From Anaerolineales bacterium (GTDB taxonomy: Bacteria > Chloroflexota > Anaerolineae > Anaerolineales > UBA4823), in assembly GCA_016935755.1 (NCBI GenBank), contig JAFGQI010000015.1, positions 1-64,000 on the forward strand: a stretch of 64,000 bases of DNA. Reading direction: 5' to 3'. A model generated the notes under the pieces. It was not told the DNA's origin. It saw only the letters and a list, made by a program, of their open reading frames with translations, and searched no databases. This document shows, piece after piece, positions 1,601 through 19,900 of this stretch. Both the position numbers and the translations under genes were made by a program. Numbering within the stretch: the stretch's first letter is position 1; each line of letters begins with the position of its first letter.

Positions 1601-4123
1601 ATGCGCCGTATAAAAACCACTCTGTTCATTTTCGCTGTTGTCCTGGCCGCGCTGGCTGCCGCCGGGATGGCCTGGCTGTTCACTGGCCTGCCCTCGCCAG
1701 ACAGCCTGCCAGAGCGCCTGAACACGCCCAGCGTGCGCATCACCGACCGCAATGGGAGGCTGCTGTACGACCTGCTGCCAGAGCAGGGCGGGCGGCACGC
1801 CGTGCTGCCCCTGGAGAGCATCCCACAGGAGCTTCAGCAGGCGACCATCGCCACCGAAGATCGCAGCTTCTACAGCAACCCCGGCGTGGATCTGCGGGGG
1901 GTCGCCCGGGCGGTGTGGCAGTATCTCAGCCAGGGGCAGGCGCTCTCCGGCGGCAGCACCCTGACCCAGCAGGTGGCCCGCAATCTATTGATGGAGCAGG
2001 GCGAGCGCGCCCAGCGCAGCCTGCGCCGCAAGCTGCGCGAGATGATCCTGGCCTGGCAGCTCACCCGCCGCCTGGAGAAAGACGAAATCCTGGCTCTGTA
2101 TCTCAACCAGACCTACTACGGCGGGATGGCTTATGGGGTGGAGGCGGCGGCGCAGACCTTCTTCGGCAAGCCCGCCAGCCAGCTGGACCTGGCCGAAAGC
2201 GCTTTGCTGGCCGGGCTGCCGCAGTCGCCTGCCCTGTACAACCCCTTTACTGACCCGCAGTCATCTAAAGAGCGTCAGATCATCGTGCTGGGCTTGATGG
2301 AGCAGGCCGGTTTCATCACCAGCGAAGAGCGCCAGCTGGCCGAGCGCGAGCCGCTGATCTTCACCGAGCAGCCCTACCCGATCGAAGCGCCGCATTTTGT
2401 GATGATGGTGCGCCGCCAGCTGGACAGCCTGTTCACCCCCGAGCTGATCTACCAGTCCGGCGGGTTGGTGGTGCGCACCAGCCTGGATTTAGACTGGCAG
2501 AAGCACGCCGAGCGCGCCATCCAGCGCCAGCTGGCGGCTCTGAAAGACAGCCAGGACGGGCAGGGTCACAATGTCAACTCCGCTGCCCTGGTGGCGCTGG
2601 ATCCAAACAGCGGCGAAATCCTGGCTCTGGTGGGCAGTCCAGATTTCTTTGATCCGCACAACGCCGGGGCGATCAACATGGTAACTTCGCCGCGCCAGCC
2701 TGGCTCGGCGCTGAAGCCCATCATCTATGCCGCCGCCCTCGATCCAACCACCCCGCCCAACACCGCCATCAGCGCGGTGCAGGGAACCTACCTGCCGCCC
2801 GCCCCCTGGACGGCGGCGACCATGTTGCTGGATGTGCGCACGGCTTTCCTGACCCACGAGGGGCTGACCTACCTGCCCGCCAACTACGATCTGCGCGAGC
2901 ATGGCCCGGTGCTGCTGCGCAACGCTCTAGGCTCCTCGCTCAATATCCCCGCCGTGCTGACCCTGGATCATGTCGGGCTGAAAAACCTGTTCACCCTGGC
3001 CTCTCGTCTGGGGATGACCACCTTTGGAGACCCGGAAAACTATGATCTCTCCCTGGCGCTGGGCGGCGGCGAAGTGCGCCTGCTGGAGCTTTCGGCGGCT
3101 TACGGCGCGCTGGCCAACGGCGGCTTCCGGGTGGACCCGGTCGCCATCCTGCAGGTCAGCGACCTGCAAGGGCAGGTCCTCTACGCCGCGCCGCCGCCCG
3201 CCCAGCAGCGCGTGCTGGATGAGCGCATCGCCTGGCTGGTCAGCGATATCCTCAGCGATGACGACGCCCGGCGGATTGGCTTCGGCGCGCACACCATCCT
3301 GAACCTGGACCGCCCGGCGGCGGTCAAGACCGGCACCACCTCCAATTTTCACGACAACTGGACGGTGGGCTACACCCCTTCGCTGGTGGTGGGGGTGTGG
3401 GCGGGCAACACCGACTTCCGCCCCATGCGAGATGTCAACGGGCTGACCGGCGCGGCGCCGGTCTGGCACCAGTTCATGCGCGCTGTGCTGACAGGCAGCC
3501 CCGTCCAGGAGTTCACCCGCCCGGAAGGACTGGAGCAGGTCGAGATTTGCGCTCTCTCCGGGCTGCTGCCAACCGAAGCCTGCGCCTACCGCCGCCTGGA
3601 GTGGTTTCTGGCGGGCACAGCCCCTACCCGGCTGGACAGCCTTTACCGTGAAGCGCTGATCGATATCGCTACCGGACAGCTGGCGGACGAGCAGGCCCCA
3701 CCTGAGCGGCGAAGGAAAATGATCGTGCTGGATCTGCCGGTGCAGGCCCAGCCCTGGGCCAGGAGCCAGGGGCTGACTCTATTCAGCGACCTGACCGCCC
3801 CGCTGATCCAGGCTGAGACCGCCTCGCCCGCAGAGGCGCAGACCTCCCTGCAGATCGTCTCGCCAGCCGCCAACGCGGTCTTCATCCTGTCGCCTGGGCT
3901 GAACCCCCAGGCGCAGCGCATCCGGCTGGAAGCCGTGGTCCGCCCAGGGCTGCGCCAGGTGCGGCTGGTGCTGGACGGGCAGGCGCTGGCCTCTTTCGAG
4001 AGCGGCCCCTACCTGGCCTGGTGGACTCTTGCCCCTGGCCAGCACCGCCTGTGGGCGGAGGCAGTAGATGAGAATGGGGCGCGGGTGGTCAGCCCGGTGG
4101 TGGTGTTTGAGGTGAGGAAGTAG
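1601..4123 (+). CDS. pbpC: Penicillin-binding protein 1C (bifunctional peptidoglycan glycosyltransferase/transpeptidase)
   Basis: The 840-residue class A PBP polymerises glycan strands and, in the family, cross-links peptides on the outer face of the membrane. It has a short cytoplasmic start and a membrane anchor (about residues 5-26). The GT51 domain contains ATEDRSFY (catalytic Glu86) and GGSTLTQQ. The transpeptidase domain contains SALK (nucleophile Ser369, Lys372), SLN (446-448) and KTGT (Lys576). The C-terminal 100 residues match the beta-sandwich BiPBP_C domain typical of PBP1C rather than PBP1A/B. No Shine-Dalgarno is visible, but a TAGAAT hexamer lies 10 bases before the ATG, so the mRNA may be leaderless. 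In Proteobacteria pbpC often sits next to an alpha-2-macroglobulin gene; here two such genes are in the same window but not adjacent. Confidence 0.95.
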   Translation: MRRIKTTLFIFAVVLAALAAAGMAWLFTGLPSPDSLPERLNTPSVRITDRNGRLLYDLLPEQGGRHAVLPLESIPQELQQATIATEDRSFYSNPGVDLRGVARAVWQYLSQGQALSGGSTLTQQVARNLLMEQGERAQRSLRRKLREMILAWQLTRRLEKDEILALYLNQTYYGGMAYGVEAAAQTFFGKPASQLDLAESALLAGLPQSPALYNPFTDPQSSKERQIIVLGLMEQAGFITSEERQLAEREPLIFTEQPYPIEAPHFVMMVRRQLDSLFTPELIYQSGGLVVRTSLDLDWQKHAERAIQRQLAALKDSQDGQGHNVNSAALVALDPNSGEILALVGSPDFFDPHNAGAINMVTSPRQPGSALKPIIYAAALDPTTPPNTAISAVQGTYLPPAPWTAATMLLDVRTAFLTHEGLTYLPANYDLREHGPVLLRNALGSSLNIPAVLTLDHVGLKNLFTLASRLGMTTFGDPENYDLSLALGGGEVRLLELSAAYGALANGGFRVDPVAILQVSDLQGQVLYAAPPPAQQRVLDERIAWLVSDILSDDDARRIGFGAHTILNLDRPAAVKTGTTSNFHDNWTVGYTPSLVVGVWAGNTDFRPMRDVNGLTGAAPVWHQFMRAVLTGSPVQEFTRPEGLEQVEICALSGLLPTEACAYRRLEWFLAGTAPTRLDSLYREALIDIATGQLADEQAPPERRRKMIVLDLPVQAQPWARSQGLTLFSDLTAPLIQAETASPAEAQTSLQIVSPAANAVFILSPGLNPQAQRIRLEAVVRPGLRQVRLVLDGQALASFESGPYLAWWTLAPGQHRLWAEAVDENGARVVSPVVVFEVRK

Positions 4124-4230: not shown

Positions 4231-5361
4231 CTACGGATGAGCTGAAATGACGATCACCACCGTCCGGTTCCTCAGGCGGTTGGCGGTTGAGTCGTTCGGG
4301 TACGGCGCTGGCTCGTCCGCCTGCGGGTGGAGCGTAAACAGGCTGGCGGGGAGCTGGGTAGTGGCCCGCAGGTGGTCGTAGACCGCCAGGGCGCGCAGCA
4401 GGCCGAGGTCCAGGTAGCTTTCGGCCTCGTCATCGGCCTGGCAGCCAGTCAGGGTGACCTGGATTCTGGCGGTGTAAGGCTCCAGCGCCTGGCCCAGGCG
4501 GGTGAGCAGCGCCCGGCTCTCGGGTTTGAGCGTCCAGCCGTAGGCGAACAGCCCACCTTCGAATGTCAGGGTGACTCTCCTGTTCTCTTGCAGCACCCGG
4601 ATGCCGGGCATCTGGATGGCCAGATCCAGCGGGGGAACAGGTGTCTCCTGCAGGCTGGTGAGCAGTTCGCCCTGGCTGTTCTGGATTGCCAGCACCTGGT
4701 CGAACAGCGCATCCTGGGTGGCCTGGTTCAGGCGCACCTCGCCCAGCACGGCCTGCTGCATCAGTTCCAGGTCTGCTGAGGAGAGGCCGGGCGGCAGGGT
4801 CGGGTAAGGTGAGGCGGCGATCACCAGCGCAGTGGGGAGTGGGCGGGCGGCGCTGGTCTGCACTGCCGCCAGCTCATCCGACAGGGAAGCCAATCTGCCC
4901 TGCACCTCGCCCAGCCGGGACAGGCTCAGCCCCAGCAGCGCCAGGCCAACCAGGGCCAGCAGCCACAGCCAGGCGCGTCCTGACAGGAAGCCCAGGCGGA
5001 CGGGTTTCTGCTGGCGGGTGACATACTGCAGGCCTTCCAGGTAGGCCGGATTGGCTGGCTCCAGAGCCAGGGCTTTGCTCCACAGCGCCTCGGCCTCCGC
5101 CAGACGCCCCTGCTGGGCGCGCATGCGCGCCAGCAGATCCAGCGCCGCAGGGCGGCTTTCGATATCAGGCAGGGTCTCCAGCAGCCCTTCGGCCTGCTGG
5201 TATTGGCCCGACCTGGCAAGATGATGGGCGCGGGCCAGGGTAGCCTGTTCGATCAAGGGGGCCAGTTCGGGCGGTGCGTCTGGTATTGGTGCAGGCTCCG
5301 CCGGGGTGGACTGCAGGCCGGGCAGGTAGGGGCTTTCCAGGCTGTCGAAATCGGAGGACAT
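4231..5361 (-). CDS. TPR protein with one membrane helix and C-terminal OmpA-like domain
   Basis: The 376-residue protein has an N-terminal TPR-like helical region (about 35-115), a single membrane helix (about 130-150), a coiled/linker stretch and a C-terminal OmpA/MotB-like fold (about 245-375). The OmpA part shows the typical beta start (RVTLTFEGGLFAYG), the helix with LLRALAVYDHL and the end ANRLRNRTVVIVI. OmpA-like domains bind peptidoglycan, so the C-terminus should face the wall and the TPRs the cytoplasm. It is the last gene of the Hsp70 operon, 19 bases after the active Hsp70. The TPRs could dock the chaperones or clients to the envelope; this is an inference from position and architecture. 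Confidence 0.8.
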   Translation of the reverse strand: MSSDFDSLESPYLPGLQSTPAEPAPIPDAPPELAPLIEQATLARAHHLARSGQYQQAEGLLETLPDIESRPAALDLLARMRAQQGRLAEAEALWSKALALEPANPAYLEGLQYVTRQQKPVRLGFLSGRAWLWLLALVGLALLGLSLSRLGEVQGRLASLSDELAAVQTSAARPLPTALVIAASPYPTLPPGLSSADLELMQQAVLGEVRLNQATQDALFDQVLAIQNSQGELLTSLQETPVPPLDLAIQMPGIRVLQENRRVTLTFEGGLFAYGWTLKPESRALLTRLGQALEPYTARIQVTLTGCQADDEAESYLDLGLLRALAVYDHLRATTQLPASLFTLHPQADEPAPYPNDSTANRLRNRTVVIVISAHP

Positions 5362-5380
5362 GAGCTTGCTCCCTGAACGG

Positions 5381-7879
5381 CTAAATCACTCCAGAACCAA
5401 ACCCGCCGCGCAGTTCTTCCTGCTGGTCGGAGGGCAGCAGGGCGATCAGCTGCTGCACCACGGCTTTCAGGCGCTGGACATCGTTGTTCTGCATGGCGAT
5501 CTGCCCCTGAGCGAAGAGCTGGTCGGCCTGGGCGCGGTCGCGCATCAGCGAACGTTTCTCCTGCAGGTGCTGGAAGAAACCGCCCCAGAACTCTGGCTTT
5601 TCCACCAGGATGCGCAGCGCCAGGCCGTGGGCGTCTTCCACCAGGCGGCGCAGCTGGTCGACATCCCGGCTGCGAATGGCCTGCTGGATGCCCTGCTCCA
5701 GCTGATCCATCAGCTGGCGGTTGTCCTCATCGCCATAATCATGGATGATCTGGCGAGTGTTGGTGATTTGCTGTTGGGCTTCGGCCACCAGCGCCGGCCA
5801 TTCCAGAGCATCTTCCACCTGGTCGATGGTGACTTTTAGATCGATCAGGCGGTTTTGCGCCTTGTCGGCTGCGTCTCGGTCGCCCCCCGCGGCGGATAGC
5901 GAGGTGTCAATTTGTTCCACCATCTGCTCGCCTTCCACCTTTTCCTGGATGATGCGCTGGGCGGCTTCGTCGTTGGTTTCATGAGCCTTGCGCCGGGCGG
6001 CTTCCAGGCGTTTTTTCTCCCGCTCCAATTCGTCTTCCAGGCGGTCGATGTCGGGGGTGGGTTTGTCGAGCTTATGCACTTCTTCGACTTCCAAATCCAG
6101 GATGGGGATATAGGCCGAAGTCTTGAGCAGGCGGCTTTCGTCAATCTCGATAGTAACTTCCACATCACTGCCTGCTGGTACATCGCGGCGGATGCTGACT
6201 GCGGGAATGGACAGAGTGCCGATCAGCCGGTTGCGGTCGGCGCGGGCATTATCGCCCTCGATCACCGGCACATGGATAAACTCTCCAGCTGCGCCCATGT
6301 GGATGGTGGCGGCGGTCTTCAGGTCCCGGCGCTGACGGGCGGGGAGTGGAGTGCCCTTCTCAAAGAATTTTCGCACTTCGTTGTTCGCCAGCGCCACCCC
6401 CACGCTGTGGATCAATGGCGGGGCGTCGGGGGTGATGCCGATGGTGTAGTTGAAGTGGTCGGGCTGCACCAGCAGGCGCGCTCCGGAGGCGTCAAAAAGC
6501 TCGATGCGGAAGGTGTTGGACTTGCCGCGCTGCGCCCACAGGGTGGTCATAAAGGAGCCATTTGGGCCAAGATTGATCCTGCCGCTGCGCCAGGCAGGCT
6601 GGGCGCCAGGGTTGATGAACTCAATCGCCAGGCCATCCAGAGACTGGCCTTCTGGGGCCCGCACCTGCCCGCCCACTACCGGTTCAACGTCTGCCCCAAC
6701 CGGGTCGTATTCCAGTTCGATCTGATAGGTGGTCTTCTTCTCCTCCCCTGTCATGGGTACGCCCTCCAGACGTTGAGAGCTGGCGAAGATGGCTGCGCCT
6801 TGAGCAACCACTGTGAGTGGGTCGATGCTGAAGTCCAGCGGTATGCCTAACCCCTGGTGGGGGTCGTTCAGATGGTCGCGCACATAAGGTGCCAGGGTCG
6901 GCCCGCCCACCAGCACCACTTTTTGGATGGCGGTCATGCTCAGGCGTTTTTCGGCCAGGGCCTGGCGGCTGATATTGATCGTGCGTTGGATGAAGGGTTC
7001 GGCCAAACGGGCAACATCGGCGCGGCGCAGTTCATACTCGAAGGCCACCGCCTCACCGTTATCGTCATTGCACAGGTAATCGAGGTAGATCTGAACAGAG
7101 TCGTCCTGCGACAGGCGGATTTTAGCTTCTTCGGCTGCCAGTTTTAGCTTGGCAAATGCCTTGCGCCACTTCGGGTTGCTGCGCGCAAAATTGCCCAGGT
7201 GATGGTCGCGAGCAGCGGCCGGGGCAAGCAAGCTTTCAACGATCTCCCAATCGATCAGCTTGCCGCCCAGATGGTTGTCACCGGAGTGATTGACGATGCG
7301 GAAGGTGCCCTCACGGATCTGGATCACCGCAGCATCAAAAGTGCCGCCGCCAAAGTCATACACCAGCCAGAAAACCTTGTCCACCTGGGTCTGGAAAGCG
7401 TGCGCCATGGCAGCCGCGGTAGGTTCCATGATCAGCGGGCTGGTCTGGATGCCTGCCAGCTGGGCGGCGCGCTTGGTGGCCTCGCACTGCGGCAGCTCGA
7501 AGGCCGCCGGGACGGTGATCACAGCGGCTTGCAGGTCTTCGTTCAAGCGCTGCTGCACATCGGCGCGCAGCGACTTCAGGATTTCGGCGGAGAGATCTTC
7601 CGGGTGCATCACCCGCCCCGAGCGGGCAAAGCGGTATTCGGCCTGGGCGCCCATCTGCAGCTTGAACTCGGCGTAGGCGTCGTCCGGTTCCAGCTCGATG
7701 CGCTGCTTGGCAAAGCGACCCACCTTCATGTTGCCTTTGTTATCAATATAGACTGCCGAGGGGGTATAGTCCAGGTTATCGTTGTTCTTGATCACTGCGG
7801 CGCGTGTGCCATCCATCACCGCAATGGCGCTGTTGGTGGTGCCCAGGTCAATGCCGAAATCAATTGTCATTCTGCTCAT
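5381..7879 (-). CDS. Hsp70-family chaperone with intact ATPase motifs and coiled-coil C-terminus
   Basis: The 832-residue Hsp70 has a full actin-like nucleotide-binding domain in about residues 1-375. Phosphate-1 is DLGTTNS (Asp11). The catalytic-lysine equivalent is Lys73 in EFKLQMG, Glu152 sits in EPTAAA, phosphate-2 is DFGGGTFD (Asp175, Thr180) and the adenosine motif is VGGPTLAP. The C-terminal half is not a standard DnaK substrate domain: a beta-rich part (about 400-590) is followed by a long charged helical coiled-coil region. It starts inside the last codons of the degenerate Hsp70 (4-bp overlap), which suggests translational coupling and equal dosage. The presence of all ATPase residues argues that this is the active subunit of the pair. 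Confidence 0.93.
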   Translation of the reverse strand: MSRMTIDFGIDLGTTNSAIAVMDGTRAAVIKNNDNLDYTPSAVYIDNKGNMKVGRFAKQRIELEPDDAYAEFKLQMGAQAEYRFARSGRVMHPEDLSAEILKSLRADVQQRLNEDLQAAVITVPAAFELPQCEATKRAAQLAGIQTSPLIMEPTAAAMAHAFQTQVDKVFWLVYDFGGGTFDAAVIQIREGTFRIVNHSGDNHLGGKLIDWEIVESLLAPAAARDHHLGNFARSNPKWRKAFAKLKLAAEEAKIRLSQDDSVQIYLDYLCNDDNGEAVAFEYELRRADVARLAEPFIQRTINISRQALAEKRLSMTAIQKVVLVGGPTLAPYVRDHLNDPHQGLGIPLDFSIDPLTVVAQGAAIFASSQRLEGVPMTGEEKKTTYQIELEYDPVGADVEPVVGGQVRAPEGQSLDGLAIEFINPGAQPAWRSGRINLGPNGSFMTTLWAQRGKSNTFRIELFDASGARLLVQPDHFNYTIGITPDAPPLIHSVGVALANNEVRKFFEKGTPLPARQRRDLKTAATIHMGAAGEFIHVPVIEGDNARADRNRLIGTLSIPAVSIRRDVPAGSDVEVTIEIDESRLLKTSAYIPILDLEVEEVHKLDKPTPDIDRLEDELEREKKRLEAARRKAHETNDEAAQRIIQEKVEGEQMVEQIDTSLSAAGGDRDAADKAQNRLIDLKVTIDQVEDALEWPALVAEAQQQITNTRQIIHDYGDEDNRQLMDQLEQGIQQAIRSRDVDQLRRLVEDAHGLALRILVEKPEFWGGFFQHLQEKRSLMRDRAQADQLFAQGQIAMQNNDVQRLKAVVQQLIALLPSDQQEELRGGFGSGVI

Positions 7880-10344
7880 GGGGTTCTCCTTACAAGGAAG
7901 GTTTGTTTCAGGATTTCATTTTTTAGCTGGCAAAGGTCGCTCTCTGCGGCTGCGATCAGTTCTATCAGCTGGGGCAGCAGGCTTTCCAGGCGGTTGAGGT
8001 CAGCTTCAGCCAGCCCGGCCTGGATCTGCGCCTGCAGCTCGTCCAGCCGGGAACTGGTGGTTTGATCCTGGCCCTGAGCAATGAGCGCCTGCAGGCTGGT
8101 AAGCAGCGCGGCGCGCTCTGCCAGGATCGCGCTGGCGGCCTGCAGCAGCAGGGCGGTGGAATGCCCGGCTGAAGCCAGGCGGTCTTGCATTTCCTGGGCA
8201 TACAGCAGCTCAAATGCATCCAGTAAGCTGGAGAGCTGGCCGGATAGGTTGGCAGCCTGGGCGGCTGCCAGGTGGTCTCCCAGCGCGGCCAGGGCGATTT
8301 TTTCTTCGATCGCTTCAATCCAACTGCGCTCGTTCACCTGGGCCTGCCACAAACTCTGCATGGCGGGGCTGCCGGTGTGAGCCAGGCGCTCCTGCAGGCT
8401 GTGCTGGCGCTCCTTGAGCCGCACGAATTCAATTTCCAACGGGCGAGTGTCCGGAGGCGGCGGGGGTGGGGCAGGCAGCGCGGGTTCGGAGGGCGGTGTT
8501 GGCTGCTCCACCAGCAGGGCTTCTTCCGTATTGTCCGGCTCAGGCGTGGGCAGGGGAGATTCTGGCGCGATTGGGGCGGGCGGTTCGGGAACTGGCTCAG
8601 GGCGGGCTGACCCGATCCGGACGGTGTCCGCGGCCTGGGGAGTCGCAGCCAGCGTTTTAGCCGGCTGCTCCGGTTCTGGCAGTTCGATCTGCGTCACCGG
8701 GGGCTGCGGTGTGATAGCCTGCACCAGGTCGGTCTTGAATAAATCTGGTTCGAGCAGTTTGGCGGAAGGCAGCACCGCAGGCTGCACCGGTTCCTGTCCA
8801 GCCTGCGCTGGCTCTGCTGGCGCGGCTTCGGCTCCAGCTTCCAGGGCTTCGGCTGGCAGACGCACCGTCTTGGCGCCTTCGGCGGGGGGCGGGGCAGATT
8901 GGACGGCTGGCAGGACAACCCGGTCGGGCTCAACCAGGCAGCGCCGGCCGGATTTGTCGCTCAGTTCGATGCTGATCACATTTTCCTGGCCCTGTATGAT
9001 CCATAAGGCAGTGATGAAGCTGCCATCCTGTCCCAGGGTACGTTTTCCGCTGCGCCAGGGAGGCTGCATGGACGAGTTGATAAACTCGAGCTGATAACCT
9101 AATGGATTTCCCTCGCCCGGCGCCTGCACCTGCCCACTGATGATCGGTTCGGTATCATCTTTGTCGAGTGTTTCAATCTCCAGTGCGATAGTGCAGGTTT
9201 CTTGTTCATCAGGGACATTCTCATCCAACACCACAGGCTGGCGGCTGGCTAAAATGGCTGCCCCCTGGGCGATAACTGTCAAGGGGTCGATGCTGTATTC
9301 CAGCGGGATGCCCAATCCGTGTTGTGGATCGTTCAATTGGTCGCGCACGAAGGGCGACAATGCTGGTGCACCAACCAGGATGGCTTTCTGCAGGTTGGCC
9401 GGATCCAGGCCGGCTTGAGCTAAAACCTTCAGACTGAGGTCTATTGTACGCTGCACGAGCGGTTCGACCAGCCTGACCACCTCGCTCCGGCGCAGTTCAT
9501 ATTCAAATGCCACCGGGTCGCCGTTGGCATCTTTGCACAGGAAATCGATCACAATCTGGGTGGTCTCAGCCTGGATCAAGCGAAGCCGCGCCGCCTCGGC
9601 TTCCTGTTTCAGTTTGGCAAAGGCTTTGCGCCAGAGGGAGTTGGAACGGACGAAATCGCTCAGCTGGTGGTCGCGAGCAGCAGTTGGGGCGAGCAGGCTA
9701 TCCACGATCTCCCAATCGATCATCTTATCGCCAAGATGATTATCGCCATCGTATTGGGCCACGCGAATTTCCCCCTGGTATATCTCGACCACAGCCACCT
9801 CAAAGGACCAGCCTTTCAATTGATAGACCAGCCAGAACTGGCGCTCGGTGTTCTTCGTATCGGCATAAGCTGCCGCGGCGGCGGTTGGTTCAAGGATCAG
9901 CAAGCATTGCTTGATCCCAGCCAATTTAGCTGCCCGCCGCACCGCTTCGCACTGCGGCAGTTCAAAAGCTGCCGGGATGGTGATGACAGCAGCCTGCAGG
10001 TCTTCCTCCAGCCGCTGTTTGACATCTGCGCGCAGCGATTTGAGCAGTTCGGCTGCCAGTTCTTCTGCTCGCATTTGTTTACCGGCGCGGTTGAAACGGT
10101 ACTCGGCATCCGAGCCTATCCGTAAAAGAAAATCTGCATGTGCGTTATCTGGTTCCAGGGAGAGGCGCTGCCAGGCTTGCCGCCCAACCTTCAGAATACT
10201 ATTTTTGTCAATATAGACAGCCGAGGGAGTCAGATCATGTCCTTCATTGTTCTTTACCATCTCAGCCTGTTGGCCGTTAAACACGGCCACAGCGCAGTTC
10301 TCGCTGCCCAGGTAAATGCCAAAATCAATCTGAGTTCTTTCCAT
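7876..10344 (-). CDS. Degenerate (pseudo-ATPase) Hsp70-family protein
   Basis: This 822-residue paralogue aligns with the downstream Hsp70 without gaps through the first 190 residues, yet its catalytic positions are changed. Phosphate-1 DLGTTNS is YLGSENC (Asp11 to Tyr). Lys73 is Leu (DFLLRIG). Phosphate-2 DFGGGTFD is QLKGWSFE (Asp175 to Gln, Thr180 to Ser). The adenosine motif VGGP is VGAP. Glu152 and the overall fold are kept, and the frame is open, so this is not decay into a pseudogene. After the ATPase-like domain comes a beta-rich region, then a Pro/Ala/Glu-rich linker (about 500-660) and a helical tail. It probably binds nucleotide poorly or not at all and may serve as a scaffold or regulator of its active neighbour. 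Confidence 0.9.
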   Translation of the reverse strand: MERTQIDFGIYLGSENCAVAVFNGQQAEMVKNNEGHDLTPSAVYIDKNSILKVGRQAWQRLSLEPDNAHADFLLRIGSDAEYRFNRAGKQMRAEELAAELLKSLRADVKQRLEEDLQAAVITIPAAFELPQCEAVRRAAKLAGIKQCLLILEPTAAAAAYADTKNTERQFWLVYQLKGWSFEVAVVEIYQGEIRVAQYDGDNHLGDKMIDWEIVDSLLAPTAARDHQLSDFVRSNSLWRKAFAKLKQEAEAARLRLIQAETTQIVIDFLCKDANGDPVAFEYELRRSEVVRLVEPLVQRTIDLSLKVLAQAGLDPANLQKAILVGAPALSPFVRDQLNDPQHGLGIPLEYSIDPLTVIAQGAAILASRQPVVLDENVPDEQETCTIALEIETLDKDDTEPIISGQVQAPGEGNPLGYQLEFINSSMQPPWRSGKRTLGQDGSFITALWIIQGQENVISIELSDKSGRRCLVEPDRVVLPAVQSAPPPAEGAKTVRLPAEALEAGAEAAPAEPAQAGQEPVQPAVLPSAKLLEPDLFKTDLVQAITPQPPVTQIELPEPEQPAKTLAATPQAADTVRIGSARPEPVPEPPAPIAPESPLPTPEPDNTEEALLVEQPTPPSEPALPAPPPPPPDTRPLEIEFVRLKERQHSLQERLAHTGSPAMQSLWQAQVNERSWIEAIEEKIALAALGDHLAAAQAANLSGQLSSLLDAFELLYAQEMQDRLASAGHSTALLLQAASAILAERAALLTSLQALIAQGQDQTTSSRLDELQAQIQAGLAEADLNRLESLLPQLIELIAAAESDLCQLKNEILKQTFLVRRTP

Positions 10345-10350
10345 AGATTT

Positions 10351-11028
10351 TTATATCGTGTCGGCTGGAGGTTCTTGTGGGGGAGTTTCTGTCGAAACGG
10401 GGATGACCGGAGTCGCCACGATCACCTCACCCATTTGGATTAACCAACGGTTACTGTCTCGTTCGTAGTAAATGGAGGGCTTGATTGTCTCCGAGACCAC
10501 TTCACGCTGGATGCCTGGATGAGTTTCAAAGGTCACAACTTTTAAGTCCAGGCCCGAGTCATAAGGCTGGTTGGTGTGGTCAATGATGGTCACGCCAGAT
10601 TCCTGGAGCGTATCCCACACGCTCTGGAAATGGCGATACGCCCGGCGAACTTCTTCCAGCGGCTGGTCGCTGCCTGGCTGGAGCAGCTTCTGGCGCAGCC
10701 GCCACAGCCCGGTGCCCATGTCAGCCAACAGACGCATCTGTTCTTTGAAAAAATGGGATTCCTTCTGACCAGCCTCTGCTGCTGCGGCAGCTGGCGCTGT
10801 GCTGCCTGCCTGGCTGCTCGACTTAATATGGGTGACCAGGTTTTGGTACACCATATCGGCTTCAGTCTGGGACATCGGGCTGCCGATTTGTATCGAGCGG
10901 CTGAAGAGAAATTGAGTCAGGTCAGCTGCCAGGTCCCTGATCCAGGCGGTGTTAGGGACCGGGCGTTTGGCTGAAGGTAATCTCGGGGCAGGGGAGCCGC
11001 TTCTTCGGATGTTTCTGCTTCCAGACAT
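10351..11028 (-). CDS. Small cytoplasmic protein in the position of a GrpE-like exchange factor
   Basis: The 225-residue protein has a basic, Pro/Arg-rich start, a helical middle (about 30-140, with an Ala-rich loop) and a compact beta-rich C-terminal module (about 140-205) containing DHTNQPYDSGLDLKVV and IQMGEVIVATP. The shape (long helix, then small beta domain ending in a strand that reads EVIVATP) recalls GrpE, whose C-terminal beta domain docks on Hsp70. No decisive GrpE signature is visible, so this is inference from shape and operon position. It ends 7 bases before the degenerate Hsp70 gene begins. It could equally be an uncharacterised Hsp70 cofactor. Confidence 0.6.
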   Translation of the reverse strand: MSGSRNIRRSGSPAPRLPSAKRPVPNTAWIRDLAADLTQFLFSRSIQIGSPMSQTEADMVYQNLVTHIKSSSQAGSTAPAAAAAEAGQKESHFFKEQMRLLADMGTGLWRLRQKLLQPGSDQPLEEVRRAYRHFQSVWDTLQESGVTIIDHTNQPYDSGLDLKVVTFETHPGIQREVVSETIKPSIYYERDSNRWLIQMGEVIVATPVIPVSTETPPQEPPADTI

Positions 11029-11063
11029 GAGTGCTCGCTTTCTCCTGACAAGGGAATCCGTGA

Positions 11064-13466
11064 TCAGGTTACGAATTTAAACAGCTTCCCGATCCCGTAT
11101 GCCAGGATGGTGCCTAAAAGGGGAGCTGCCAAAAAGACGAAGGTGTTCTCTATGATCAAGATATTTGGTGAACTAAAGCTCAGAAAAAACAAGTTGATCC
11201 CATAGGTGATCAGATTCACCAGCACCAGGATCCCCAGGGTGAGCTTGGATTTACGGAACAGCCAGAAAGTCACACCCAGGATGAAGGGAGACAGGATAAA
11301 AAACGGGTTGGAGGCAACCGCGGTCGACTGGGTGAAGAAATCTGTCAGGGTAGCAGCCGTAGAGCGACGCGTGATGAGGTATGCCAGGTTGGCAGGCAGA
11401 CATATGACCGTACCCATGATGAAAGCGCCAAGTTGGGGATTGGTCGCAAAGGAAGATTCCAGGTTGGCCCTTAGCAGGATCAGAGGAATGAATGAAATGG
11501 TGATGATCAATATGCTGACGCCAATCGCCCGCCAGTTGCTGGCAGGTTGGCCTGGCGCACGGGGAGCGCTCTTTGTTCTGGCAGCAGCGCTGGGAGAACC
11601 GACTGCTGGCGATGGTACCGGTTGGGAGGTTTTTACTGGCTTTTGACTGGTTGTTCCCGCATCCCAGCGCGCTGGCAGAGATAGGTTGAGATCCTTGGCG
11701 ATTTTTCGAGTAGCTTCCAGGTTGCCGCGCACAATCTGGTTGTTGGGATCCAATTCCTGGGCGCGCATCAAATCTCGGGAGATCTCGATCAGGGCTTTCC
11801 CGAAGTTGCTCTTGCGACCCTCCATCTCGTGATCGTCCTCGGCGTTGCAGTTCGGGCAGATCAGGAATTTGGAGTTTTCATGGCTGAAAGTGATCCAGCG
11901 GGTGACATGGGCTCCGCAGGCCATGCACACCAATTGGCCCATCTGGGCGGCCATCTGTTCTGTGCCGCCTAATACAGCGCTGATCGTCATATAGAGAAAC
12001 TTATCTGCTGAGTCCAGGCGGCTCTTGATTTTCATGAAAATCCGCCGCGGCCGGTCAAGCTCCAGGGAGGCCACCCTAAGCAGGTCATTGGATCGCTGGT
12101 TCAAGGCGGTGCTGAGCGCTTTGTGCACCAGCTTGAGTTGGTGGGAATCCAGCGGAGGGCTGGCGGTGGTGAGCAGTCCTTCCAGGATGGGGATGGAATG
12201 TTCGTAATCGCTGCTCTTGTGGTGTTGGCGAGCCTTTTCCATCGGTTCCAGGATGTGGGGCGGCAGATCAAAATATCCCTCTCCGCACCAGTCATTGCCC
12301 GACTCGAGATTGCCCTTCAGCGTACTGACATTATCCTGCAGCCGGCTGCGCGCCGAGGGGCTGGCGGCGATTGCCAGGTATTGCTCCATCAAGCCAAGCG
12401 CCTCCTGCCAGTTCTCGGTGGTGTTGCCATACGAAACCAGGCAGCTCAATCCGCGCAGGGCAATCTCATCATGCAGCACCTGGCGGATAGTGGCAGTCTC
12501 AGGCAGCAGGCGGTCGATGATCTGCAGTAAGGGCTGGCACTGCTCCAGCAGGCCGCGCGCCACCTGATTGCCGCGCACAGGATCAGCCTCAGCCTGGGAC
12601 TCAGCGTTTTTGCAGTAGGTCTTGATGCGCTCACGCATTGGGCCGAGGGCGCGCTGCAGCGCGTCGCTGACCACTTCTGGTGGGAATTCAGCCAGTTGAA
12701 TGGTGCGCAGCTGCCTCTCAACCACGGCTTCATCACCGCGTTCGTAAGCCTGGATCGCCAGGCGCACATTGATCATCAGCAAGCCCATCGGCAGCATAGC
12801 GCGCATACTCTGCACAGTGCTGCCATCCAGGCGGGGGTCATCGAATTCGCGCACCCGGGCGGTCAACCGGCTCCAGAAGGCATCATGGTTGAGCAGGTTG
12901 CTCCAGCGACGAAAGGTCTGCCGCCAATAGATGTCCAGGTTTCTGAGTTGGCTTTCGCTGAGCGACCGGTCTTCCAGGATCTTCATTTCTAAATCCAGCG
13001 CCATCAGGTGCGAACGCACTGCCAGGTTATGGATCGAGACGTTGTCAGCGCTGTAATTGTTGGCGTAATTGCTCCAGATCTCAACCGCTTCTTCAACCTG
13101 ATCCTGGCGCAGAGCTGTCAGGGCTTCATCATTTTTACCATCGCCCAACTCATGGGGCCAAAACCAGAAGAACTCGTCAATGAAGCGCCTTTCCGGGTCT
13201 CGCAGGCGCTGCACCGCCTCGCCAATGCCATATTTATCCAGCGTTCGATCCAGGGGCAAAGCCCTGCCTGGGCCGGGTAGAGGCGGTACGCCGGTCTTTT
13301 GGGCGATCTCGATCACTTTCTGGCGTCTCGAGACATCCATCTCCCCGCAGTCCACTGGCAGTTCCAGCAGACGAAAGGCGTTTATCTGGTAGATATTAGG
13401 CTGGGCAGCCTCGATGAATAACTCTCCCAGGCTGGTCAGACTGGCAGTATGGTTTGATATCGGCAT
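11064..13466 (-). CDS. Membrane protein with degenerate J-like N-terminus, central zinc ribbon and C-terminal membrane helices
   Basis: Of the 800 residues, about 20-105 look like a J domain in layout: a start like NAFRLLELPVD, a long helix pair, and an end like LRDPERRFIDEFFWFWP. The HPD tripeptide required to stimulate Hsp70 is absent. A long helical solenoid follows. A zinc ribbon with two Cys pairs (CMACG and CPNCN) lies at about 510-545. Four or so hydrophobic helices fill about 655-800 after a Pro/Ala/Lys linker, so the bulk should be cytoplasmic and membrane tethered. It lies between the kinase gene (9 bases) and the GrpE-position gene. Context suggests a targeting factor for the two Hsp70s. 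Confidence 0.7.
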   Translation of the reverse strand: MPISNHTASLTSLGELFIEAAQPNIYQINAFRLLELPVDCGEMDVSRRQKVIEIAQKTGVPPLPGPGRALPLDRTLDKYGIGEAVQRLRDPERRFIDEFFWFWPHELGDGKNDEALTALRQDQVEEAVEIWSNYANNYSADNVSIHNLAVRSHLMALDLEMKILEDRSLSESQLRNLDIYWRQTFRRWSNLLNHDAFWSRLTARVREFDDPRLDGSTVQSMRAMLPMGLLMINVRLAIQAYERGDEAVVERQLRTIQLAEFPPEVVSDALQRALGPMRERIKTYCKNAESQAEADPVRGNQVARGLLEQCQPLLQIIDRLLPETATIRQVLHDEIALRGLSCLVSYGNTTENWQEALGLMEQYLAIAASPSARSRLQDNVSTLKGNLESGNDWCGEGYFDLPPHILEPMEKARQHHKSSDYEHSIPILEGLLTTASPPLDSHQLKLVHKALSTALNQRSNDLLRVASLELDRPRRIFMKIKSRLDSADKFLYMTISAVLGGTEQMAAQMGQLVCMACGAHVTRWITFSHENSKFLICPNCNAEDDHEMEGRKSNFGKALIEISRDLMRAQELDPNNQIVRGNLEATRKIAKDLNLSLPARWDAGTTSQKPVKTSQPVPSPAVGSPSAAARTKSAPRAPGQPASNWRAIGVSILIITISFIPLILLRANLESSFATNPQLGAFIMGTVICLPANLAYLITRRSTAATLTDFFTQSTAVASNPFFILSPFILGVTFWLFRKSKLTLGILVLVNLITYGINLFFLSFSSPNILIIENTFVFLAAPLLGTILAYGIGKLFKFVT

Positions 13467-13475
13467 ACTATTTTC

Positions 13476-14627
13476 CTACTTATTTGATGCGTTCCGGTCT
13501 GGCGGCATGGCAACAGTCATCACCCCCCGCCGCCACAGCGTCACCTGCCATTCGTATTCTTCGCGCAAATCGGGCCATTTATTGAAGGCCTCTTCCATTA
13601 AGTCAGCAGCTTCGCTCAACCTGTCTGCGCGGCGCGCCAGTTTGAGCGCTTTCTCTACCATTCCCCTGGCTTCACTCTGGTTCGGGCTGGAAACCGGTCC
13701 CAGGGCGTCTTTGTTGGTTTCGGTGATGACCATCTTGGCTGGACTGATCGAGCCGGGCTCGACCGGCTTCCATTTTTCCAGGTCAGCCAGCAGCTGGATG
13801 GCAGAGGGGTAACGGTTTTTGGGGTGAATAGCCAGGCAGCGGCAGACGATCTGGTCCAGGCCGGGATCTACCTGGATGTTGAGCTGGCTGGGAGGGATGA
13901 GCGGCTGGTCGAAATTAAAATCATCCACCAGGCTGGCCTGTCCAGGGTCACCGAAGGGGAAACGGTCGGTCAATAAAAGATACAGCGTGCAGCCGAGCGC
14001 CCAGACGTCCCCCATGCAGGAGTCTTTTTGATAATCCTTGAAGGTTTCGGGGGCCTTGAAGACGCGCGTGCCCTTCGCGCTGACCATCAGGGTCATCGGG
14101 TTGGCCCGCTTGGCCAGGCCGAAGTCGCTAACGCACACCCGCATACCGCCAGCATCGTAACCAATGAGCATGTTTTGCGGTTTGATGTCACGATGGACGA
14201 TTGGAGGTTTCTCGCTGTGGCCCACGGCAATGCCGCGGGATGCCTGGCGGACGATATCGACAGCATTCTCGACTGGCATCAGCTTCAACCCGAACGATTT
14301 CCAGTGGTGATCCAAGCTGCCGCCAGCCAGGTACTCCATGGTGAAATAACCGCACAGCCCTTTGCTGGTTTCGGCGATATTGGCGTCAAAGACCTGGATG
14401 ATATTACGATGGTGAATTTGCGAGAGCAGTACGGCTTCCTGGAGCATCTGCTCGATCTCTTCTATGGACATGCCGGTGGCTTTGAATACTTTCATCGCCT
14501 GACGTCCCAGAAAGCGGTGGCGGACGCGGTACACTTCTGCAAAGGCGCCTTCCCCCAGGAAGCGCTCAATGGTGTAGGATTGACCTATTACCTGGCCGTC
14601 TTTTAACAGCCGGATTTCTTCATCCAT
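13476..14627 (-). CDS. Eukaryotic-type serine/threonine protein kinase (cytoplasmic, no membrane helix)
   Basis: The 383-residue Hanks-type kinase has all key motifs: glycine loop GEGAFAEV (25-32), ATP lysine Lys46 in AMKVFK, helix-C Glu64, catalytic loop HRDIKPQN (145-152), DFG (168-170) and APE in FKAPETFK. The kinase domain ends near residue 290. The remaining 90 residues are helical and TPR-like (ALKLARRADRLSEAADLMEE). There is no membrane helix or PASTA domain, unlike PknB/PrkC. It is the second gene of the Hsp70 operon and overlaps nothing, with a 9-base gap to the next gene. Likely substrates are the neighbouring chaperones, which is inference. Confidence 0.93.
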   Translation of the reverse strand: MDEEIRLLKDGQVIGQSYTIERFLGEGAFAEVYRVRHRFLGRQAMKVFKATGMSIEEIEQMLQEAVLLSQIHHRNIIQVFDANIAETSKGLCGYFTMEYLAGGSLDHHWKSFGLKLMPVENAVDIVRQASRGIAVGHSEKPPIVHRDIKPQNMLIGYDAGGMRVCVSDFGLAKRANPMTLMVSAKGTRVFKAPETFKDYQKDSCMGDVWALGCTLYLLLTDRFPFGDPGQASLVDDFNFDQPLIPPSQLNIQVDPGLDQIVCRCLAIHPKNRYPSAIQLLADLEKWKPVEPGSISPAKMVITETNKDALGPVSSPNQSEARGMVEKALKLARRADRLSEAADLMEEAFNKWPDLREEYEWQVTLWRRGVMTVAMPPDRNASNK

Positions 14628-14717
14628 AAAAGACCTCTCATTTGTCGGTAATTTAAACCTGGTCCGGATGAATAGGTGTTCCTGGCAGGGGCTGCCAGAG
14701 GTTGTCAGCCAGTTTTT

Positions 14718-15230
14718 TCAGGCGACGCGCCGCCCACCCTTCAGCGCAGCAGTTAGCTTTTCGAACTCATCCCATTTCCCCTGGGCGGCCAAGGCTGCCT
14801 GTTCGGGCCAGGTAGTGGGATCCAGGAATTGCAGCCCGGCGGCGACCAGGATTTCTTTCAGCCGGACAACATCCGCGCCAGCCAGTTGTGCGAAGGTGGC
14901 GATGCCGGCTGCCTGTAGAATGGAGTTTACTTTGGGTCCGATGCCTTCCAGGATGGTCAGGTCATCTGGAACGAGGGGCTGCACTGGCAGGGGTTCAGTT
15001 TCAAAAGCGACCTCTTCTGTTCTGGTTGCGACAGGCTCCTCAACGTGGGGCAGTTCGGATTGCTCTTCGTGATGGGCTTCGATGTGCGGCGGCTCTTCGT
15101 TGGCGGAACGCGTCAGCCACCACCAGACCAGCAAAACCACGATAATGAAGAGAAGGATCCACACCCAGGGTGGAATGCCAGCATCTTGCTGCGCAGCCTG
15201 CACGAAAGGTAGATAATAACCGGAAATCAT
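14718..15230 (-). CDS. Membrane-anchored helix-hairpin-helix protein
   Basis: The 170-residue protein has an extracytoplasmic short start, one membrane helix (about 19-40, WVWILLFIIVVLLVWWWL), an acidic linker rich in Glu/His/Pro, and a C-terminal helix-hairpin-helix domain (about 88-165). This contains LTILEGIGPKVNSILQAAG and FAQLAGADVVRLKEIL, as in proteins annotated as flap-endonuclease-like helix-3-turn-helix (COG3743). Such domains bind DNA or rRNA-like backbones or mediate protein contacts. It is the first gene of the minus-strand run leading into the kinase, 90 bases upstream of it. Whether it belongs to the chaperone operon is uncertain. Confidence 0.75.
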   Translation of the reverse strand: MISGYYLPFVQAAQQDAGIPPWVWILLFIIVVLLVWWWLTRSANEEPPHIEAHHEEQSELPHVEEPVATRTEEVAFETEPLPVQPLVPDDLTILEGIGPKVNSILQAAGIATFAQLAGADVVRLKEILVAAGLQFLDPTTWPEQAALAAQGKWDEFEKLTAALKGGRRVA

Positions 15231-16928: not shown

Positions 16929-19900
16929 CTAAGGGGCTACGGTAAACAAGCTGCCCTCCCCGCGTCCGTACACCTCCAGGAAATAGAACTCCGAGGCGGT
17001 AGGCGGGATAGCGCGGAAAACGCCCACCGTTGAGGCGCGTACCAGATAGGTAAAGATATACGTTCCGGCAGGCAGATAGCTGGCGGACAGCATCACCTTC
17101 TCATCGCGGTACTGCGTATGATCAAAGTACCACCAACCCCAGCCGCGCCAGAAGACATCCTCCCAGGAATAAGTCTGAGGCACCTCAACGGTCTGCGGGC
17201 TGGTGAGCAGCGATTGGTCGACGGCTTCCAGACCGGCGGGCAGCGGATCGTCCACCACCAGGTAGTGTACCGCGGTAGGCACAACAATAGTAAGCCGCGC
17301 CAGCAGCAGATCGCCCTGTCCCGCACTCGTGACAGGATTTTCCATATCATCTAACTGGTAATAGCTGCGCGAGATCACGATCCCCTGGTCCAGGGACTTG
17401 ATTTGTTCTACTGGCAGGTATGCCTTCAGATGGGCGGTGTAGTACAGATTGCCTGTTCCATCATCCCGTGCAAAGACCAGGCGATTAGCCTGATCGGTAA
17501 GCAGGTCGGCGATATCGACCTTCAACAGGGTGGTCTGACGCAGGGTCTCTGAATTGGCAATCCCGCTTCCCAATTGTTTACCGTTCAAGGAAACGGCGAA
17601 CTGGTAGTTGGCTTCCAACTCACCACTGGCAACCATCCAGCGGGTCAGTCCCATCAGCGTCCAGGCAGTCTCCTGCGTGCCTCGCCAGTAGCCGTTGGTG
17701 CGGCTGCTCATCAGCCAGCGCACCGCGTTGGCGTTGAGCGGGTTGCCAGGGTCGATCTGGCTAAGCGCAGACAGCACAATGGCGGTGGTGCGGGTGTCAG
17801 TATTCCAGTTCCAGCGGTCGGTAACTTTCTCCTCCCAGTGAGTGCCAGATGCAGATAGGAAGGCTGTACTGGCAAAGTCGGATAACAGGGTTTGGAGGCG
17901 CGGATCAGCTTCATCAATCCAATAGAACGTCTGGGCCAGGAAGGCGCGGGCATACAGGGCCATATTCTGGCGCTGTTCGTAAATCTGCACGCTGGAACTT
18001 ACTTCGGGCTTGCCAGCCCGGGCCAGCACATAGAGCAAGAAGGCCTGCCGGTTAAGCTTTTCCGGGTTGGTCAGTCCCACCGCTGAGATCAGGCGTCCAC
18101 GCAGGAAGCCCAGCCCTCGGCTGATGACATCCTGAGATACGGTGTAACCGGCTTCTTTGGCTTCTACCAGGCCCAGCACCACATAGGCTGAGGTCAGCGT
18201 TTCGCTCTTCTGATTGCGCCACCAGCCCCAACCACCATCGGCATTTTGCCAGTTGTACAGGCGCTGGAGGGCGATGCTGACCTGCTCTTGTAGATCTTCC
18301 TCAATCTCAGCATTGCTCAGCCCGGCGGCTTTCAATGCCTGGGTAGTGAGCACGTTGGGCAGGAAGCGCGAGATGGTTTGCTCTATACACTCGTATGGAT
18401 AATGCTTCAGGTAATCCAGCCCATCGGTCATCGAGGCCGCAAGGGAGGGAGAGACCTGAACCGTCAGCTCACCTTGTGATACTTTGAAGGTCGATGGCAG
18501 GTTGATCGCTTCCAACAGCGAGCCGCCTTCGGTCATCTGACCGGATGTGCCCACGGTTTCGGGGGCTTCGTAGCGATAGACCGGGATGCCCTGCTGATCC
18601 AGGGTTCCCATCGGTGGACGGCTGGCATCGCGATAGCCGCCGCCCTCAGCGCTGAAGATCAGGTCCACGCGCTGGGCTTCAGGCAGCACCGTCGCATCCC
18701 AGGTCACATATACCTGGCTTTTTGCATTAATCTGCACTGCCTGGCTGGCGGCCTGTTTCAGCTCAACGCCCTCGGTCTGCAGATTGGCGGAAATCTGGAG
18801 TGTTTGGTCGGTGTTATTTTGCACCGCCATACCCAAGACAACCTGGTCATTGGCGACAAAGAAGCGTGGGGTCTGCGGGCGAACCAGCAGCGACTTGGTG
18901 CTGACCAGATCGAAAACTGTCTGGCCTACACGGGTATCCTGTGTCACGGCGCGGGCATCCATGCGCCAGGTAGTCAGGTTGTCTGGCAGGCTGACAGTCA
19001 CACTGGCTATGCCGTCCTGGTTGGTGACAACCTGACCATCCCAGAAGGCTGTGTCGGGGAAATCCTGCCGGACTTCGACTACGCCCATGATGCCCTCGCC
19101 CTTAGCGCCGCCGCCGCTGCCGCCACGACCGCCCTCGACCATTTTTTCGGAAACATCAGCGTTATATTCTTCGATATTCATCGCGATTGGGACGGAGGTC
19201 CACACGCCCAGAGTGCGCTCGGAGTAGAAATAGTCCAAGATGGGGGACGAATTTGGCGGCAGCAATGATAAGGTTGCCAGATCGGACAGGCTGAGCGATA
19301 CCTCAGCGCTGACTGGCTGACCGTCCGCAGCAGTAGTCTTCACGGTGAAAGTTACTTTTTCTCCCGGCCCAGCCTGGGTCCGGTCGGATGTCAGGAGAAC
19401 ATTTAAGTTTTGCTGACTGGTGTCTACCATCAGTTCGAGGATGCCCATCTTGAAGTTGGGGCGCGGGTTAGTATCATCGACGCCCTTGACCACCACTACC
19501 GAGACATAGATATTGGGCGCCATGTTGGCAGTAATTGGCAGCTTGTATATGGTGCTGTTGCTATCCAGCAGAATGACATCCTGATAATGAACGCGGCCCC
19601 GTTCCACCGTTACCAGTGCGTACGCCTCGCCCTGGAAGGGAGATGCGATCAGAATCTCGGCAGTATCGCCGGGGGTGTAGCTCTTACGGTCAGAGACCAG
19701 GTCGAAGCTGCGGTCATTAGTTTGCCGCCAGGGGATATAGTCCTCGCTGGCGACCCACAGATATGCGGAGGCTTTCCCGGGGTTACCCAGCGCGTCCAGG
19801 GCGGTGACATAAGCGCGGAAGATACCACCATTGGGCGGTGTAAAACGCACAGTGGCCTGGCCTTTATCATCCAGGATAACCTCAGGGAAAATGTTTACCA

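Follow-up and report, generated by a model that had tools for sequence, protein, structure and literature searches.

A seven-gene operon encoding divergent Hsp70-cycle components

The window analyzed here is a 64,000-nucleotide stretch of an Anaerolineales contig (JAFGQI010000015.1, positions 1 to 64,000) and contains seven tightly packed reading frames, all of them open, that run on the minus strand from 15230 to 4231. In order of transcription, these encode an HHH-domain membrane protein (170 residues, 14718..15230), a Ser/Thr protein kinase (383 residues, 13476..14627), a J-like protein (800 residues, 11064..13466), a GrpE-like predicted exchange factor (225 residues, 10351..11028), an Hsp70 predicted to be a pseudo-ATPase (822 residues, 7876..10344), an intact, active-type Hsp70 (832 residues, 5381..7879) and a TPR protein with one predicted transmembrane (TM) helix and a weak OmpA/MotB-like C-terminus (376 residues, 4231..5361). 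The gaps are 90 bp (HHH–kinase), 9 bp (kinase–J-like), 35 bp (J-like–GrpE-like), 6 bp (GrpE-like–first Hsp70) and 19 bp (Hsp70–TPR), and the two Hsp70 genes overlap by 4 bp. The arrangement of seven same-strand genes with short gaps, as described in the initial annotation, is thus confirmed, with no gap above 90 bp. A promoter and terminator scan found nothing above chance.

Searches of Pfam and NCBIfam identify the kinase (Pkinase, 4.6e-41), the active and inactive Hsp70s (HSP70, 2.2e-82 and 4e-56, respectively) and the TPR protein (4.6e-5), and the 800- and 225-residue proteins match no curated family in either collection. The OmpA-like, HHH and zinc-ribbon assignments in the window all fall under the cut-off. 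The HHH assignment is based on HHH_5 (E=0.0047) and an N-terminal hydrophobic stretch, and we rejected this first gene as a core component because none of the other module loci described below has a homologue.

The surroundings of the operon include genes for a PBP1C-type transglycosylase/transpeptidase (1601-4123), two alpha-2-macroglobulins (16929-22997 and 41901-46868) and an L,D-transpeptidase (23067-24728). The operon may have been inserted between the two members of a pbpC–alpha-2-macroglobulin gene pair.

A J-domain-related protein lacking the HPD motif

The 800-residue protein begins with a J-domain-like region lacking the HPD motif (∼residues 15–110), continues as a helical solenoid to ∼residue 390, and then carries a putative zinc ribbon (CMAC at 514 and CPNC at 537) followed by C-terminal TM helices predicted by hydropathy. 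In an AF2 model of residues 1–400 (pLDDT 88.7), residues 30–99 form four helices, the first short and the second long, and the remainder is an all-helical solenoid. When compared by hhalign with the J domains of canonical DnaJ proteins taken from the same genomes, the N-terminus aligns over the helix II/III region with P=3e-6; four other segments of the protein, used as controls, gave values of 0.13–0.35. Yeast Ydj1 is among the weak profile matches in the PDB (E=0.34) and covers the same residues. A Foldseek search with the whole model returned no J domain, the best matches being TPR solenoids. Because these solenoids dominate the structural search, the evidence for a J domain comes from profile comparison and the order of the helices. 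By these measures the N-terminus is related to J domains and is predicted to have lost HPD, a motif that is absent from every aligned member of the family. Conservation is instead strongest in two motifs, R-x-IDE-(F/I)-FWFWP where the J region ends and HN-x-A within the solenoid.

The homologues likewise have no convincing match to curated families in Pfam or NCBIfam. Several members have CxxC pairs, and 16 of 19 full-length members have hydrophobic helices at the C-terminus (by hydropathy only). The family also varies in architecture and copy number. Long N-terminal arrays of Sel1 repeats occur in the J-like proteins of Syntrophaceae (L010, 5040-7952 and 8105-11323) and Smithella (L014, 8189-12094); two J-like genes lie in tandem at the Syntrophaceae locus, and a verrucomicrobial locus (L017, 9935-17345) has one at each end of the operon.

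A GrpE homologue by predicted fold

The 225-residue protein occupies the position expected for GrpE. An AF2 model built from 12 homologues is well predicted for ∼residues 80–208 and consists of long helices followed by a six-strand beta domain. The top 11 matches of this model in a Foldseek search of the PDB are all GrpE or GrpEL1 (best E=1.2e-5), with nothing else near, and the family profile ranks Geobacillus GrpE (4ani) first among PDB entries (E=0.0054). The Pfam GrpE family does not match the window protein and weakly touches 3 of the 12 homologues at E≤0.01 (best 9.6e-4). The model indicates that this protein is a GrpE homologue by fold. The initial annotation had proposed a divergent J partner and a protein in the position of GrpE, and both assignments are borne out by these comparisons.

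The active-type Hsp70 lacks the linker and the residues of the classical J-protein contact

The 832-residue Hsp70 has a canonical nucleotide-binding domain, but the DVLLLDV interdomain linker is replaced by a beta-rich stretch (∼residues 385–480), which is followed by a region resembling SBD-beta and a helical C-terminus ending in GGFGSGVI. The same organization is found in relatives from other genomes: the DVLLLDV linker is absent from all module Hsp70s, and ∼100 residues of beta-rich sequence precede the SBD-beta-like region in its place. The catalytic residues D8, K70, E171, T199 and D201 are retained in all 27 module Hsp70s compared. In contrast, R167, N170 and R151, present in 7/7 DnaK, HscA and HscC sequences, are found in none of the 27, and position 167 is most often proline (19/27).

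The contact between HPD, Arg167 and the linker is regarded as central to the Hsp70 cycle and as general for Hsp70s. For DnaK, the contact of R167 with Asp35 of the HPD motif was inferred from mutagenesis and modelling (PMC5519331). Since R167 is gone from the module Hsp70s and HPD is missing from their J-like partners, both sides of the classical J–Hsp70 contact have been lost within one module. This paired loss provides evidence, at the level of sequence, for a rewired cycle.

In a tree with canonical DnaKs and E. coli DnaK, HscA and HscC, the module Hsp70s form one clade with a support of 100/100 and a long stem, and we therefore rejected the assignment of the operon Hsp70 to any of these three types. 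The join of this clade to HscC is a long-branch case and is unsure. A main review of prokaryotic Hsp70s lists only DnaK, HscA and HscC (PMC8215388).

The Hsp70 and GrpE-like proteins have no predicted TM helix and should therefore be cytosolic. In most bacterial members of the module, the Hsp70 C-terminus consists of RG[YFV]xS and a few further residues, encoded immediately ahead of the TPR gene (for example, 5381-5410 in the window); this tail is missing from the inactive copy. One idea, by analogy with the eukaryotic EEVD motif, is that the tail might act as a TPR-docking signal.

The inactive Hsp70 is a lineage-specific duplicate

The 822-residue Hsp70 carries the substitutions D8Y, K70L, T199S and D201E, and the second half of its SBD-beta is replaced by a Pro-rich stretch. 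On the basis of these residues it is predicted to be a true pseudo-ATPase, and the distinction drawn in the initial annotation between a degenerate and a normal Hsp70 is accurate. In the tree it is sister to the adjacent active copy (support 100/99), on a branch ∼4 times longer.

A pseudogene is the obvious alternative for such a sequence. The frame is open across 822 codons and shares 4 bp with the gene that follows, and the differences between the two copies by codon position (0.29, 0.18 and 0.55) are highest at third positions. The open frame, the overlap and the third-position excess, in a comparison made between the two copies, disfavor a pseudogene and indicate that the inactive Hsp70 is probably a maintained protein.

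The two unequal Hsp70s named in the initial annotation are not part of the general plan of the machine. Every other module locus has one active Hsp70 and no second, inactive one; the apparent pair at L089 is a single gene broken into two pieces. We therefore rejected the inactive copy as a conserved component, and the comparison indicates that it is a local, lineage-specific duplicate found only in the window. The GAP1-N2 systems, which are distinct from this module, include cases of a second HSP70 that lacks the peptide-binding domain (PMC7159879), and these may by analogy serve as a precedent for a regulatory role of the inactive copy.

A linked kinase and a TPR protein with a predicted membrane anchor

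The window kinase has intact motifs (GEGAFAEVY, VHRDIKPQN and SDFGLA) and carries a module-specific C-terminal tail, EAADLMEEAFNKWP..LREEYEWQVTLWRRG. The tail is conserved in bacterial homologues from Chloroflexota on, with a consensus of approximately EAADLMEEAFNKxPxLRxKYxxQVKLWRCGISM, and is weaker yet recognizable in archaeal copies. A kinase gene lies upstream in 23 of 33 loci, in agreement with the conserved kinase linkage anticipated in the initial annotation. Kinase control does not appear to be universal, since no kinase adjoins the core in two Verrucomicrobiae loci (L060 and L061) and two Methanobacteriaceae loci (L085 and L088). A calcineurin-like phosphatase gene lies downstream in 10 Methanobacteriaceae loci. 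A kinase that is fixed in the operon and has a tail of its own, joined in archaea by a phosphatase, is most simply explained by phosphorylation control, which is plausible on this evidence. In the Dehalococcoidia locus (L009, 5114-5818), an FHA domain fused to an OmpR-type DNA-binding domain is encoded a few genes upstream of the kinase; this protein is a possible phospho-reader for the kinase of the same locus. At the Planctomycete locus (L018, 2762-9748), the kinase near the J-like gene is fused to an FGE-sulfatase-like domain, and the vicinity has neither an Hsp70 nor a GrpE-like gene.

Homologues of the TPR protein follow the Hsp70 in L008-L011, L014, L015, L017, L019, L020, L029, L059, L060, L082 and L084, and 8 of 10 TPR proteins have a TM helix (by hydropathy only). 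Together with the C-terminal helices of the J-like family, these predictions support a membrane association of two components, the J-like and TPR proteins. The C-terminus of the window TPR protein resembles OmpA/MotB (5.7e-7 to a MotB subfamily, under the cut-off). The only other OmpA-like wall-binding domain is in the Syntrophaceae locus L010 (2.9e-14), and most of the remaining TPR proteins carry a membrane helix and lack this domain. Of the membrane and wall-binding parts described in the initial annotation, the former recur in most members (16/19 J-like and 8/10 TPR proteins) and the latter do not.

These observations bear on the proposal that the operon encodes a chaperone for envelope clients, such as the products of the neighboring PBP and alpha-2-macroglobulin genes. 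The proposal draws on the membrane helices of the J-like and TPR proteins, on the OmpA-like domains of the window and L010, and on the proximity of the PBP1C, alpha-2-macroglobulin and L,D-transpeptidase genes. However, no PBP or alpha-2-macroglobulin homologue lies near the module at any other locus, so these clients are not supported; moreover, the wall-binding domain is mostly missing elsewhere, and the Hsp70 and GrpE-like parts are expected to be cytosolic. We consider an envelope chaperone improbable. The parts of the earlier proposal that survive are a dedicated Hsp70 machine, the divergence of its J and GrpE proteins, the linkage to a kinase and the membrane parts; the clients do not.

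The genes form a conserved but patchily distributed module

With a profile built from two J-like sequences, a scan covering a single genome for each GTDB species yielded 18 loci. HMM searches found matches in 11 of 286 genomes from the class of the verrucomicrobial carrier (∼8 of them full-length), 14 of 139 Methanobacteriaceae, 3 of 155 genomes from the class of the Syntrophaceae carrier, and 2 of 400 Chloroflexota. The Chloroflexota relatives include the Dehalococcoidia genome (L009), and the module is absent from the sampled order-level relatives of the window genome. Two loci (L005 and L006) are weak matches, and the frames beside L005 are unrelated to the module.

Linkage was counted in 34 J-like loci, partly non-independent, from five bacterial phyla and the Methanobacteriaceae. 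Of 29 testable loci, 28 have an Hsp70 gene just downstream of the J-like gene; a GrpE-like gene adjoins in 27/29, and an Hsp100 or stand-alone Clp_N gene is present in 20/25. The gene order is shared across at least five bacterial phyla and methane-making archaea, and the distribution is sporadic. Scattered, unlinked homologues had been named beforehand as the finding that would speak against a dedicated machine; the homologues are instead linked, in the same order, in other phyla and in archaea. In a Mantel test, the pairwise distances of module parts correlate with r = 0.77–0.92 overall and 0.49–0.85 for bacteria alone (permutation p ≤ 0.0006), values that still include shared ancestry between taxa. 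Together, linkage and distances indicate that the operon parts are co-inherited as a conserved module.

The linked Hsp100 is a ClpA/B/C-type double AAA+ protein (758–784 residues) whose gene immediately precedes that of the kinase in Syntrophaceae, Smithella and Methanobrevibacter. It has both Walker sites and pore loops, and the gap of ∼80 residues between AAA_lid_9 and AAA_2 indicates that it has no room for the ClpB middle domain. Stand-alone Clp_N genes are frequent in loci lacking an Hsp100 (L009, L011, L012, L013, L017 and L059). In the window, neither an Hsp100 nor a Clp_N gene adjoins the operon; the genome encodes four proteins with a ClpB D2-small domain away from it. In two archaeal genomes, the operon Hsp100 is the sole protein found with this domain. 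The Hsp100/Clp_N component, the loss of R167, R151 and the linker in step with HPD, and the archaeal spread were all missing from the initial annotation.

Further genes accompany the module in Methanobacteriaceae. One subgroup has a TPR gene with an M78 (IrrE-like) metallopeptidase domain downstream of the phosphatase (L022, 16378-17775; homologues in L023, L081, L083, L086 and L087), and carriers G662, G663, G1004, G1018, G1029, G1032 and G1041 encode an extra Hsp70 of ∼1165–1210 residues outside the module. In four loci, a fusion of TIR to a Chlamydia-PMP-type beta-helix repeat region (L019 3982-6087, L020 3982-6087, L082 14835-16502 and L084 14643-16385) is encoded directly upstream of the ClpB-like gene on the same strand.

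The TIR–beta-helix genes adjoining Hsp100 and the patchy distribution across phyla would fit a conflict or immunity system in which an Hsp70/kinase core sets the threshold of an effector, a role already suggested in the GAP1-N2 GTPase systems. There is published precedent for HSP70 and GrpE in such systems, a subset of them with a second HSP70 lacking the peptide-binding domain, in overlapping phyla (PMC7159879), and the window kinase matches the PADLOC kinases mad6 and PD-T4-6. These kinase matches, however, reflect the similarity that Pkinase domains share in general, and none of the other operon proteins has a convincing match. The window operon has no GAP1 GTPase, FNIII or vWA domain, and most loci have no effector. 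A search of plasmids with the J-like protein and a scan of viral contigs found no relative, and thus there is no evidence of phage or plasmid carriage. A conflict system is the main competing explanation, but we regard it as unlikely.

A more conservative interpretation takes the locus for a duplicated stress chaperone operon of the ordinary kind, next to which the kinase and membrane genes lie by chance. Hsp70, GrpE and J proteins are the usual chaperone set, and four loci have no kinase. Chance neighbors would not account for a gene order retained across bacteria and archaea or for a module-specific tail on the kinase, and the Hsp70 clade lies far from DnaK, its linker and J-contact residues lost along with HPD in all J-like partners. 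This interpretation is highly improbable.

A model for a second, kinase-wired Hsp70 machine

We consider it probable that the locus is a Chloroflexota member of a patchily spread, membrane-associated, kinase-wired second Hsp70 machine. Canonical DnaK is present in nearly all carriers checked, and the module would therefore be a machine parallel to the housekeeping DnaK. Its J-like, GrpE-like and Hsp70 proteins would run alongside DnaK and be wired to a Ser/Thr kinase of their own, with the J-like and TPR proteins providing the membrane anchor. The Hsp70 would bind client segments at the inner face of the membrane, with the J-like solenoid as a putative adaptor. ATP turnover would be coupled to client capture via a contact other than HPD–Arg167–linker, and the GrpE-like protein would reset the nucleotide state. 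The kinase, docked via its conserved tail and joined in archaea by the phosphatase, could switch client or partner binding. Released clients may be refolded or handed to Hsp100, an unfoldase to which the machine would be coupled outside the window. The inactive Hsp70 of the window is probably a non-cycling scaffold or decoy acting on the same partners.

A bolder version of this model is conceivable, though we hold it only tentatively. The module Hsp70 would represent a fourth prokaryotic type, with an ATPase cycle that runs without the HPD–Arg167–linker switch. Coupling would go through the HPD-less J-like membrane adaptor and gating through the dedicated kinase, and the module would so constitute a phosphorylation-driven, membrane-bound Hsp70–Hsp100 unfoldase common to bacteria and archaea. 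A natural machine that is missing both sides of the contact, yet has kept the catalytic site and its GrpE and J-derived partners, makes alternative Hsp70–client coupling directly testable. The same holds for the question of whether an Hsp70 of bacteria and archaea is gated by a kinase dedicated to it.

Comparison with known systems

The module resembles the DnaK–DnaJ–GrpE system, with its partner ClpB, in having an Hsp70 with intact catalytic residues, a GrpE-fold partner, a J-domain-derived partner and, at several loci, an adjoining Hsp100 gene. It differs in that its Hsp70 belongs to a separate clade, has a beta-rich replacement of the linker and has lost R167, N170 and R151. Its J protein lacks HPD, a kinase is part of the operon, and the linked Hsp100 appears to lack the ClpB middle domain. 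E. coli HscC, with tail-anchored DjlB and DjlC, is likewise a specialized second Hsp70 with membrane-anchored J partners. Unlike the module Hsp70, HscC keeps R167 and a linker, has no kinase and is separate in the tree, and it is said not to use GrpE (PMC8215388).

The GAP1-N2 systems combine HSP70 and GrpE with a J or TPR partner and sometimes a second HSP70 without a peptide-binding domain (PMC7159879), and the phyla that carry them include Chloroflexi, Verrucomicrobia and Planctomycetes (Kaur et al. 2020, PMC7159879). In contrast to the module, they are built on a GAP1 GTPase and an FNIII protein, neither of which was found in the window operon or in the scanned flanking genes of related loci, and the survey describes their kinase theme as separate from the HSP70 theme (PMC7159879).

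CJD1, ARC6 and Tim16/Pam16 provide precedent for a J-like domain without HPD in a membrane-associated protein. The J-like domain of CJD1 showed no Hsp70 binding in yeast two-hybrid assays (PMC3196505). Unlike CJD1, the module J-like gene is fixed in an Hsp70 operon whose Hsp70 has lost the matching contact. Full-text searches of open-licence papers found no description of the operon. Set against these systems, the module appears to be an Hsp70 machine that combines a new type of Hsp70, a J partner lacking HPD and a built-in kinase.
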